64,000 bases of DNA. It comes from a virus. The stretch covers positions 1 to 64,000 of IMG/VR virus record IMGVR_UViG_3300047562_004403; one strand, given 5' to 3'. A program made the position numbers and the translations under genes. The notes below the pieces were generated by a model that was given only the letters and a program-made list of their open reading frames with translations, had not been told where the DNA came from and did no database searches. Below are positions 52,593 through 56,797 of this stretch, one piece after another (position 1 is the stretch's first letter; the number at the start of each line of letters is the position of its first letter).

Positions 52593-54506
52593 ATGTCCGA
52601 ACCCCAAGTCCCCTCGTGGATGTCAAAAGAAGCCATCGATACCCTATCGAGAGGATATCTATATCAGGGTGAGACGCCCAGAGGTATGTATGAAAGGGTG
52701 GCTAATCAAGCCGCTAAATTACTCAATTACCCCGAGCTCTCAGAAGATATTTTTGAAGTACTATGGAGGGGATTTCTTGGCTTAGCAACTCCCGTGGCGA
52801 GTAACTTTGGCACTTCGAGGGGGCTCCCCATCAGTTGCTACTCTAATCACGTCTCTGATTCCGTACCCTCTATCTACTCCCACCTGAAGGAGTCAGCAGC
52901 TCTCTCCCAGCATGGTGGCGGAGTGGGTACCTACTTTGGAGACATTCGTCCCGCTGGGGCTCCTATCTCATCAGGGGGAAAGAGTACAGGTATAGTGCCC
53001 TGGATGCGGCAATATGATCAATGCGCGGCCGTTGTCTCCCAGGGTGGAGTAAGACGCGGTAGTTTCGCTCTATACCTACCCATTGACCATCCTGATTTGC
53101 CTGAAGTACTTCGTGCTAAAGACCATTCACAAGGCGATCCACGCGACTTTATTGATAGCAACGTGGCCGTAACAGTAACTGATGAGTGGGTAAAAGAATT
53201 GCTCGCGGGCGATAGAGACAAACAAAAACTCTTTGGCGAGGTACTTAAAGCCCGCCTTGTGTCAGGGTCTCCTTACATCATCTTTATTGACAATGCCAAC
53301 AAGGCCAATCCAGATTGCTACACACAACGTGGCTTAAGTGTTAAACTATCAAATTTGTGTAGCGAAATTTTTCTCCATACTGATGAAAACCATACTTTTG
53401 TATGTGTTTTATCCTCGCTAAATCTTTCTCGATGGGATGAATGGAAAAATTGGACCGCTCCTGTAACAGGCAAAACTGTCCCTGAGTTGGCTGTGTATCT
53501 CCTTGACGCGGTTGTAGAAGAGTTTTGCCATAAGGCCGAACGTCTTACTTCCTTGGGTAGGGCTGTAAGATTCGCTCGCAAATCTAGGGCTTTAGGCCTG
53601 GGTACTATGGGTCTTCATGCTCTTTACCAATCTAAAAATTTGCCCTTCTCATCCGAAGGAGCTCGCGATCTAAACATTGAAGTACATAAATTTATCAAAG
53701 AGAAAGCGCAAAAGGCTTCTCGTGAGATGGCTATTGCCTATGGCGAGCCAGAATGGTGCCAAGGCACCGGCCTCCGTCATACCCATCTCATGGCAATTGC
53801 CCCAACCAAATCTAATTCCGTGATCTGTGGTGCCGGGAGCGAGGGAATTGAGCCTATTGACGCCAACTATTACGTAGCCAAGCAAGCTAAGGGGACATTT
53901 GTTCGTAAGAATAAATACCTAGTAGAACACTTGGAGCGCATCGGACGTAACACCGAAGAGACCTGGGAATCTATTCTAGAGTTTCGTGGATCAGTGCAAC
54001 ATCTAGATTTCCTTGATGCCCACTCTAAAGAGGTATTTAAAACTGCACGTGAAATTGACCAATTTGAGTTGATCCGTCAAGCCTCAGATCGACAAAAGTA
54101 TGTTTGCCAAGGTCAATCTATCAATCTCTTTGTCGATCCCGAATCTACACCTGAGTATCTTTTCAAGCTTCATTTAAGTGCCTGGAAAGGAGGACTTAAA
54201 TCTCTCTATTATTTGAAGAGTTCATCTTTGCTTATTAAGAAAAAACCATCAGGGCAACAAAAAATTGCCAAAATTATCACCAAACAAGAATGCCCTTATT
54301 GCTCCATGGCTAAGTCACTTCTCCGTAGTCAGGGTTGGACAATTAACGAAGTAGATCGGATGAATGTTCCCGATTCTGAATGGCATTGGAAAACCGTTCC
54401 GCAGATTTGGCTCAATGGTCAGCATGTTGGTGGTTATACCGACTTGGCAGAAAAACTCGGTCATAGGGAAAAATCTTATGGTGAATGTGTGGCCTGTGAG
54501 GGTTAA
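52593..54506 (+). CDS. nrdA: Ribonucleotide reductase large subunit fused to glutaredoxin
   Basis: 637 residues. Catalytic residues by position: C82 (ISCYSN), N254/C256/E258 (SNLCSEI), C271 (VCVLSS), radical-path tyrosines Y539-Y540 (SLYYLKSSS). The usual N-terminal ATP-cone is absent, so activity regulation by ATP/dATP is probably lost. After the catalytic barrel, residues 555-625 form a glutaredoxin: CPYC (567-570), TVPQIW (601-606), HVGGYTDL (611-618). The protein then ends with CVAC (632-635), the reductase shuttle cysteines, so the glutaredoxin lies between barrel and tail and could reduce it in cis. It is flanked by homing endonuclease genes. Confidence 0.92.
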   Translation: MSEPQVPSWMSKEAIDTLSRGYLYQGETPRGMYERVANQAAKLLNYPELSEDIFEVLWRGFLGLATPVASNFGTSRGLPISCYSNHVSDSVPSIYSHLKESAALSQHGGGVGTYFGDIRPAGAPISSGGKSTGIVPWMRQYDQCAAVVSQGGVRRGSFALYLPIDHPDLPEVLRAKDHSQGDPRDFIDSNVAVTVTDEWVKELLAGDRDKQKLFGEVLKARLVSGSPYIIFIDNANKANPDCYTQRGLSVKLSNLCSEIFLHTDENHTFVCVLSSLNLSRWDEWKNWTAPVTGKTVPELAVYLLDAVVEEFCHKAERLTSLGRAVRFARKSRALGLGTMGLHALYQSKNLPFSSEGARDLNIEVHKFIKEKAQKASREMAIAYGEPEWCQGTGLRHTHLMAIAPTKSNSVICGAGSEGIEPIDANYYVAKQAKGTFVRKNKYLVEHLERIGRNTEETWESILEFRGSVQHLDFLDAHSKEVFKTAREIDQFELIRQASDRQKYVCQGQSINLFVDPESTPEYLFKLHLSAWKGGLKSLYYLKSSSLLIKKKPSGQQKIAKIITKQECPYCSMAKSLLRSQGWTINEVDRMNVPDSEWHWKTVPQIWLNGQHVGGYTDLAEKLGHREKSYGECVACEG

Positions 54507-55582: not shown

Positions 55583-55762
55583 ATGCTTATTCCTCGTCAG
55601 CGACTTATTCAGAGCATAGATCTATGTTTTTGTGATGCATGCGATGGTAGAGGATTTCTTATTCTTGAAAAAAATTCGCCGGATGGGCGTATATTACCCA
55701 ATGAAATAAAGGAGTGTGAAGTTTGCGATGGTACCGGAAAACATAAAAACAATCAGACCTAA
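55583..55762 (+). CDS. Mini zinc-finger protein with two DnaJ-type CxxCxGxG motifs, 59 residues
   Basis: Found by direct translation. Two CxxCxGxG units: CDACDGRG starting at C17 and CEVCDGTG starting at C45, the repeat of the DnaJ/HSP40 zinc-binding domain; together they can hold one zinc. There is no J-domain. Similar mini-proteins occur in bacteria and phages as redox or RNA-binding accessory factors. Its 3' end overlaps the downstream HNH gene by 35 nt. The role is unknown; the motif itself is clear. Confidence 0.7.
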   Translation: MLIPRQRLIQSIDLCFCDACDGRGFLILEKNSPDGRILPNEIKECEVCDGTGKHKNNQT

Positions 55763-56223: not shown

Positions 56224-56325
56224 GATCGTTCATCGAGACTTAGTCTCGACGGAAGTAAGCCGACTCGGAACGGATCGTTCAGCCACAATTAATCTGGCCG
56301 CAAAAGCCGACTGAAGGAACGCACC
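56224..56325 (+). promoter_or_regulatory. Glutamine (Downstream-peptide/glnA-type) riboswitch, duplicated form
   Basis: Known core elements of the glutamine riboswitch are present: CGTTCA opening P1, a perfect P2 hairpin TCGAGAC-TTA-GTCTCGA (56233-56249), the conserved CGGAAGTAAG (56250-56259), and the closing CTGAAGGAACGCACC (56311-56325) pairing CGTTC (56227-56231) with GAACG (56317-56321). Uniquely, the region is two 49-nt near-repeats: GATCGTTCA at 56224 and 56273, and AAGCCGACT at 56257 and 56304, each unit ending GGAACG. The second unit has CGCAAAAG in place of CGGAAGTAAG. It lies 30 nt before a small YRG-peptide gene. Confidence 0.8.
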
Positions 56326-56355
56326 AATACCATAATAAGTAATGGAGCAAACCTA

Positions 56356-56508
56356 ATGTCTAAACTAATTTACAGAGGCGTAGCCTACGACCCTCAAGAT
56401 CGTTTCTTTCAAAATCAAGAGCAAATTCAACAACAAGCCCAGCAATTACCACCTCATACTAAAGTATATAGAGGAGTAAAAGTTGTTGAGGAAAATAAAA
56501 ATGAATAA
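56356..56508 (+). CDS. DUF4278-like YRG peptide behind the riboswitch, 50 residues
   Basis: Found by direct translation: starts MSKLIYRGVAYDPQDRFF and ends HTKVYRGVKVVEENKNE. The LxYRGVxY opening and second YRG are the signature of the cyanobacterial DUF4278 family and of the short peptides known downstream of glutamine riboswitches in cyanobacteria and cyanophages. GGAG lies 9 nt upstream. Its role is thought to involve nitrogen metabolism control (for example glutamine synthetase regulation by small peptides in cyanobacteria), but in this phage that is inference. Overlaps the next mini gene by 8 nt. Confidence 0.8.
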   Translation: MSKLIYRGVAYDPQDRFFQNQEQIQQQAQQLPPHTKVYRGVKVVEENKNE

Positions 56509-56617
56509 ATCTATTAACGTTCTTCAGTTAATAAAAGAAAAAAAGCAAAAAGAAGAGCGTCGTAATAAAGCCTCCCTGGCACAAATAACAGGGAAGTTCA
56601 ATGAACAACCAATATAA
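56501..56617 (+). CDS. Mini protein, 38 residues
   Basis: Basic, helical peptide (LIKEKKQKEERRNKASLAQIT) encoded by an ATG that overlaps the stop region of the YRG-peptide gene; the third mini gene in turn starts 17 nt before its end. Chained overlaps suggest translational coupling. No family is known; reality is supported by the unbroken chain of coupled starts. Confidence 0.5.
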   Translation: MNKSINVLQLIKEKKQKEERRNKASLAQITGKFNEQPI

Positions 56618-56759
56618 ATATCATTTTGATGATATGGATAAAGATAGTAGGCCTCCTGCTTGCTATCTTTTGAGGTACCGAGGATGTGTATATTGGTCTT
56701 GCTATAGAATACAACTCAAAGAATGGTTTGAAAAAATATTGTGTATAGAAATCGATTAA
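56601..56759 (+). CDS. Mini protein with YRG motif, 52 residues
   Basis: Begins MNNQYKYHFDDMDKDSRPPA and contains LLRYRGCVYWSCYRIQL, again a YRG followed by an aromatic, as in the first mini gene of the cluster, plus three cysteines. It ends just before a strong terminator. Possibly a divergent member of the same YRG-peptide group (inference). Confidence 0.5.
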   Translation: MNNQYKYHFDDMDKDSRPPACYLLRYRGCVYWSCYRIQLKEWFEKILCIEID

Positions 56760-56766
56760 AGTTCGA

Positions 56767-56797
56767 AAGAGAGGAGTAAGTGCCTCTCTTTTTTTTT
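56767..56797 (+). terminator. Strong intrinsic terminator
   Basis: Stem AAGAGAGG (56767-56774) with CCTCTCTT (56783-56790), loop AGTAAGTG, followed by an uninterrupted T run. Ends the riboswitch-controlled cluster. Confidence 0.9.

Follow-up and report, generated by a model that had tools for sequence, protein, structure and literature searches.

A predicted nested glutamine riboswitch assembled from two complementary units in cyanophages

Introduction

When the signature pieces of a glutamine aptamer are divided between two adjacent repeats in a phage leader, do they make up two riboswitches, one, or none? Cyanophages depend on the nitrogen of their hosts, which assimilate it via glutamine synthetase. 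The original prediction for this locus left two options, an aptamer that had been duplicated with different parts lost from each copy or a lone aptamer carrying an additional inserted stem, and it proposed that the element would let the phage sense host nitrogen status.

Both glnA riboswitches in phages and tandem glutamine riboswitches are already known (PMC9964418, PMC9004378, PMC9481103, PMC2864571). Cyanobacterial glutamine aptamers lie mainly before DUF4278 genes (the domain spans the N-terminal portion of IF17, a factor that inactivates glutamine synthetase), and in cyanobacterial type 1 and type 2 elements associated with DUF4278 genes, glutamine activates expression (PMC6316151).

Two complementary units in one leader

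The window analysed here, 64,000 nucleotides in length, comprises bases 1–64000 of a virus record of 79,816 bases (IMGVR_UViG_3300047562_004403), in which no further glutamine elements were found. The record was correctly assigned to a phage: it lies near S-TIM5, and the neighbourhood of the element (HNH endonuclease, small ORFs, and cytosine methylase) shares approximately 69% DNA identity with S-TIM5, S-TIM54, S-TIM61, and S-TIM66. Two other ORFs in the window deserve mention: one (52593–54506) combines a ribonucleotide reductase large-subunit barrel domain with a glutaredoxin domain, and another (55583–55762; 59 aa), with a weak match to the DnaJ-type zinc finger, overlaps the HNH endonuclease ORF.

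The signature pieces do lie in two adjacent 49-nt repeats, the second of which contains CTGAAGGAACGCACC, ending at 56325, and both units share AGCCGACT and GGAACG (Table 1). The losses are likewise complementary, as had been described: GAAG is missing from unit 1, and where unit 1 has CGGAAGTA, unit 2 reads CGCAAA. Covariance-model searches bore out the glutamine-aptamer assignment, with RF01739 (glnA, type 1) matching both units. Unit 2 (56274–56325) scored 35.3 bits (E 0.00064, 64 kb window searched), just above the gathering score of 35 bits, and unit 1 (56225–56272) scored 26.0 bits (E 0.0031, 801-b search), below it; RF01704 (Downstream-peptide, type 2) reached 15.8 bits against a gathering score of 33 bits. 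RF01739 thus gives two unit matches in the window and no single nested match. Unit 1 brings CGTTC, P2, and CGGAAGTA, unit 2 brings GAAGGAACG, and every piece of the RF01739 layout (P1 CGUUC:GAACG, J2/3 CGGAAGUA, J3/1 GAAG, and one P3) is present in the window. Judged from sequence, the pieces of both units combined would form one complete glnA-type aptamer.

Table 1. Features of the element and of the putative operon downstream (window coordinates)
Feature	Position	Strand	Basis
Two 49-nt units	56225–56325	+	Pieces located by sequence
P1 5' strand (CGTTC, copy 1)	56227–56231	+	Partner in nested model 56317–56321; sequence, RNAalifold, RNAfold
P2a hairpin TCGAGACTTAGTCTCGA	56233–56249	+	Both-side changes at 5/5 base-proximal pairs
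J2/3, conserved glnA core CGGAAGTA	56250–56257	+	RF01739 consensus match
P3 5' strand AGCCGACT, unit 1	56258–56265	+	Covariation with 56305–56312 in relatives
Inner hairpin P1b, GGAACG-GAT-CGTTC, P3 tip	56267–56280	+	RNAalifold prediction; linker length
P2b hairpin GCCACAATTAATCTGGC	56282–56298	+	Both-side changes at 5/5 base-proximal pairs
Inner junction strand CGCAAA	56299–56304	+	CGCAA/CGCAG counts in relatives
P3 3' strand AGCCGACT, unit 2, partner of unit 1	56305–56312	+	Closing-pair covariation
J3/1 GAAG and P1 3' strand GAACG	56313–56321	+	RF01739 consensus match
Putative expression platform, Shine-Dalgarno GGAG 56344–56347	56322–56355	+	Predicted hairpin; weaker evidence
50-aa DUF4278/YRG protein gene, likely target	56356–56508	+	PF14105, phrog_5049
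38-aa lysine-rich ORF LQLIKEKKQKEERR	56501–56617	+	ORF list; overlaps DUF4278 gene stop
52-aa ORF, end of putative operon	56601–56759	+	ORF list
Intrinsic terminator-like hairpin closing putative operon	56765–56792	+	10-bp stem and T run

Recurrence in cyanophages

Two degenerate DNA patterns derived from the units were scanned across 2.9 million viral contigs, with at least 120 matches each. When annotated phage records were added to the pattern matches listed, the complementary arrangement had been found again in at least 155 distinct composites, and it is therefore not a product of chance. The 155 listed composites share one anatomy, CGTTCA-P2a-CG[G/C]AAGTA-AGCCGACX-C-GGAACG-linker-CGTTCA-P2b-CGCAA-n-YGCCGACT-GAAGGAACG, in which the J2/3 core is CGGAAGTA in 139 and CGCAAGTA in 16, and the inner junction is CGCAA in 153 and CGCAG in two, the search pattern having demanded CGCA[AG]. 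Since the patterns fixed these parts, the invariance of the P1 strands and cores is partly built in. Records with the composite include S-PM2, S-CREM1, Bellamy, P-TIM68, P-TIM40, P-RSM6, P-HM1, and P-HM2, as well as P-SSM2, P-SSM4, P-SSM7, S-SSM7, DSL-LC02, DSL-LC03, S-SRM01, and S-TIM5/54.

A covariance model built from these relatives scored 88.6 bits at 56227–56322, the window copy being among its training sequences, and 74–111 bits over the full length of six ORF-free phage elements, all of them also training sequences. Among 390 cyanobacterial genomes, the composite design was not found, the same model giving nothing above 40.4 bits (with strict filters, and with ORF-interrupted composites scoring low), and the listed matches were approximately 50–60 bases long, the length expected of a single aptamer. 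In a separate search of genomes drawn in the same way, RF01704 was carried by 54 of 390. Across 84,980 species genomes, the unit-2 pattern matched 103 times, an estimated chance level, nearly always in unrelated organisms and never with unit 1 upstream. The composite is a new and widespread variant of a known riboswitch class, apparently phage-specific within the genomes searched. Ordinary, complete glnA-glnA tandem aptamers were also encountered before unrelated genes at seven loci in viral contigs (L012, L017, L035, L055, L078, L094, and L107).

Covariation between the units

The P3 strands covary between the units, which makes the first option of the original prediction, a duplicated aptamer, unlikely. 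The closing pair of P3 (X:Y) is standard in all 145 equal-length listed composites (U-A 86, G-C 54, A-U 3, and U-G 2) and in 22/22 distinct strand combinations, a result equalled by none of 20000 permutations. The inter-unit paired fraction of P3 is 0.795, relative to a permuted maximum of 0.761 and to 0.35 and 0.26 in slid registers; because the sequences are related, these permutation figures are not probabilities. The first P3 pair changes on both sides as well (A-U, C-G, G-U). The P3 strands of S-TIM5, Bellamy, P-TIM40, and the viral locus L137 are shorter but pair perfectly (AGUCG with CGACU), and at another locus, L052, P3 consists of AAACGAC with GUUGUUU. Two of the eight P3 pairs, at inner positions, are usually A-C mismatches. 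Over a 41-sequence alignment, which misplaces P1 and P2a in one row (L095), 92.6% of cells were paired versus 82.7% after shuffling, with 100 both-side changes versus 27.7. It is the repeated, differing two-sided changes that carry the argument for an inter-unit P3.

The same observations bear on two further readings. A decayed or merely sequence-level repeat, devoid of present riboswitch function, would accommodate the score of unit 1 below the Rfam cut-off; it is opposed by compensatory changes in P2a, P2b, and P3, by the invariant P1 strands, and by the conserved association with YRG genes, and it is scarcely credible. Two independent tandem glutamine aptamers, each partly degenerate, would resemble the pseudo-cooperative doublets, of which 157 are known together with 4 triplets (PMC9481103). 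Both units are at or near the RF01739 threshold, and complete glnA-glnA tandems do exist in other viral contigs (for example, L012, L017, and L055), but these differ in having longer linkers and a full core in each unit. Strict covariation between the units and complementary losses fixed in 155 listed sequences also weigh against independence. Rather than two or more complete, independent aptamers, the units are complementary, incomplete, and joined by an inter-unit P3, and this arrangement of independent aptamers was rejected as very improbable on the strength of that covariation.

A probable single nested fold

It is likely that 56227–56322 folds as one nested riboswitch belonging to the glnA (type 1) class of glutamine aptamers, with the fold predicted and ligand binding presumed. 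The outer aptamer would comprise P1 (the first CGTTC with the second GAACG), P2a, CGGAAGTA, P3, and GAAG, and the P3 helix, built from both units, would bear at its far end an aptamer-like junction made up of the P1b hairpin, P2b, and CGCAA. Pairing of the first CGTTC with the second GAACG would complete the outer aptamer, thereby leaving the first GGAACG, the linker, and the second CGTTC as a hairpin that caps P3. The shared P3 places CGGAAGTA of unit 1 and GAAG of unit 2 at one helix end, like the glnA consensus. Of the second option, a lone aptamer with an added stem, the single aptamer is favoured by inter-unit covariation and by RNAalifold, but the insert is not one stem; sequence and modelling support a second, circularly permuted three-way junction that shares P3.

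P3 of the RF01739 layout is backed by covariation, and the evidence for the nested P1 consists of folding programs and linker length. Unconstrained, RNAalifold predicted outer P1, the inner hairpin, P2a, and P2b; P3 itself was not drawn, which is probably explained by the A-C mismatches usual at two of its eight pairs. RNAfold, which like RNAalifold represents no pseudoknots, favoured outer P1 over a local P1a in 80/80 short composites, with mean probabilities of 0.87 and 0.01, respectively. In the minimum free energy structure of the full window leader, the inner hairpin was present and outer P1 absent. The inner helix was invariant in 41/41 aligned sequences, and the few departures in outer P1 all came from the one misaligned row. 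No base changes were found in the first GGAACG, at three bases tested in three scans of viral contigs, and for this reason no compensation that might discriminate between nested and tandem P1 is visible. At one viral locus (L066), RF01739 itself gives a single nested match of 103 nt (47.6 bits), and the deposited annotation of S-CREM1 is one glnA riboswitch of 99 nt.

The two P1 helices could also be local, each unit forming its own, with the inter-unit P3 as a pseudoknot or kissing helix and unit 1 resembling the pseudoknot of the host type 2 element. This arrangement of cross-paired tandem units relies on the very same covarying P3, and it would explain why RF01739 scores the window as two matches; furthermore, the host type 2 topology runs P1, P3 5' strand, GGAACG, P3 3' strand, and the CGCAA of the inner core is similar to CGCAG, the core of type 2. 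It is nonetheless unlikely, as it would leave unit 1 without GAAG and unit 2 without CGGAAGTA at their own junctions, and secondary-structure energies give local P1a a probability of only about 0.01, albeit in pseudoknot-free models. Likewise, the P1b linker is never shorter than the hairpin-loop minimum of 3 nt throughout the 155 listed composites (3 nt in 130 and 4 nt in 20), as the nested fold would require.

ORFs inside the aptamer loops

In 74 of the 155 listed composites, a hairpin tip contains an entire ORF: 56 in P2b, 34 in P2a (18 composites having both), and 2 in the inner hairpin. The window element has no ORF in any hairpin tip. Phages with ORF-bearing loops include P-SSM2, P-SSM4, P-HM1, and S-TIM5, the last with ORFs in both P2a and P2b; loci with such ORFs include L123:2484–2930 (S-TIM5), L124, L127, L128, and L345–L352. 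The start codon of the P2b ORF lies in or adjoins the P2 5' strand, as in UCCUAUG pairing with CAUGGGA, and its stop is the UGA of GAC-UGA-AGG in the aptamer P3/J3-1 strand in 51 of 56 cases. The P2b ends covary (182 pairs versus 150 permuted, 0/5000), and in the same permutation comparison, the P2a ends were nearly invariant, with no excess of covariation. Differences at codon positions 1, 2, and 3 number 5323, 2997, and 7809, a skew that supports coding by the embedded ORFs, and the peptides correspond in PHROG to phrog_504 and phrog_6471, families of unknown function.

The inner hairpin can be interrupted as well. At L136 (reverse strand), an ORF of approximately 190 codons sits at the inner-hairpin tip, between GGAACGGA and TCGTTC, and L135:3300–3560 retains a short remnant of this insert with the same ends. 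By eye, the L136 ORF resembles a GIY-YIG homing endonuclease; in Pfam, it gave no GIY-YIG match and a weak helix-turn-helix match only. Long inserts upstream of CGGAAGTA at L013, L111, and similar loci were considered as group I introns and rejected, with no Rfam match at E 0.01 in ten loci; these inserts are ORFs inside P2a.

Downstream genes and a putative switch

The product of the first gene after the element scored 21.8 bits against PF14105 (E 0.00024), below the curated cut-off of 25.3, with the YRG motif present, and matched phrog_5049 at E 7.5e-9. A direct protein search with this short, divergent ORF found no phage or viral relatives, and YRG is present in 145 of 154 ORFs that follow the element in the listed composites. 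The 38-aa ORF is likely part of the same operon; the final, 52-aa ORF has no Pfam or PHROG match. Proteins similar to the 38-aa product are encoded by the first gene after the riboswitch at L029, L049, L052, L088, and L096.

Given the riboswitch class and gene context, a glutamine-on translational switch is most likely. L-glutamine would stabilise the junction or junctions and thereby keep the 3' strand GACTGAAGGAACG within the aptamer, where it would be unable to pair with the Shine-Dalgarno/start region; at high host glutamine, the DUF4278 gene and the two small genes that accompany it would then be translated more. In the hairpin predicted for the aptamer-free state, which encloses the Shine-Dalgarno sequence, GUC and CCU, located around the start codon, pair with GAC and AGG from the aptamer 3' strand, and in several marine phages, CUGAAG/CUAAAG pairs with CUUUAG/CUUCAG beside the Shine-Dalgarno sequence, with two-sided changes. 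Engagement of the aptamer strand costs the platform hairpin approximately 6 kcal/mol on average (−11.7 to −5.6). When two folding states were compared, with the strand free or engaged, the increase in Shine-Dalgarno accessibility upon engagement was at most 0.3 in every leader, and in most modelled leaders, the Shine-Dalgarno sequence was still paired in a residual local hairpin. The simple model of a Shine-Dalgarno sequence freed on aptamer folding was thus unsupported, and both the ligand response and the last step of the proposed switch are putative. We infer that the ligand binds, that it does so at two sites, and that it switches expression in this direction; sensing of host nitrogen status by the phage, as originally suggested, is plausible from the class of riboswitch and from the DUF4278 gene.

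A bolder and decidedly tentative reading holds that phages invented a riboswitch with two back-to-back ligand junctions sharing P3, the hairpin tips of which are cassettes that hold entire genes. The gene embedded in P2b, the usual form, would have its start codon within or at an aptamer helix and its UGA stop in the P3/J3-1 strand. With ligand bound, the fold would shut this gene and open the DUF4278 gene downstream, and translation of the embedded one would in turn unfold the sensor, giving a reciprocal and possibly cooperative switch.

Relation to known glutamine riboswitches

Like glnA/type 1 (RF01739), the composite has P1 CGTTC:GAACG, P2, J2/3 CGGAAGTA, and J3/1 GAAG, and precedes DUF4278-type genes. 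Unlike it, the window's P3 strands lie approximately 40 nt apart with a second three-way junction on P3, the P3 of many phage relatives encloses complete ORFs, and the design was phage-only in the searches made. With Downstream-peptide/type 2 (RF01704), it shares a CGCA-type inner core, short downstream ORFs including DUF4278/YRG, and the cyanobacterial world. In the host type 2 element, by contrast, P3 is a hairpin with GGAACG in its loop, which pairs with CGUUC, and both a second P2 and a GAAGGAACG 3' end are absent; host sequences read CUCAGG...GGAACG...CCUGAG, and the window, having no such short hairpin, lacks the RF01704 topology. A type 2 identity was rejected on this topology and on the 15.8-bit score. 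The two CGTTC...GGAACG units per leader recall tandem glutamine riboswitches (PMC9481103; L012), but each unit of a tandem doublet is complete, whereas the phage units are complementary and have one common P3.

The annotated glnA riboswitches of S-CREM1 and S-PM2 are the same element, and the S-PM2 record served as an Rfam homologue in RNA-Puzzle modelling (PMC9964418, PMC6806525). Neither the nested inter-unit architecture nor the presence of ORFs in aptamer loops was found described in the literature searched, outside of which lie Klahn 2018 and Ames 2011.

Conclusions

The element is present in well-studied phages, including S-PM2, P-SSM2, P-SSM4, P-HM1, S-TIM5, and Bellamy, where it precedes genes similar to the DUF4278 portion of IF17, the glutamine synthetase inactivating factor of the host, and it bears on how cyanophages read or steer the nitrogen status of their hosts. 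For RNA biology, it would represent an aptamer architecture with two junctions on one common arm, and the insertion of protein-coding genes in aptamer loops would make coding and folding constrain one another.
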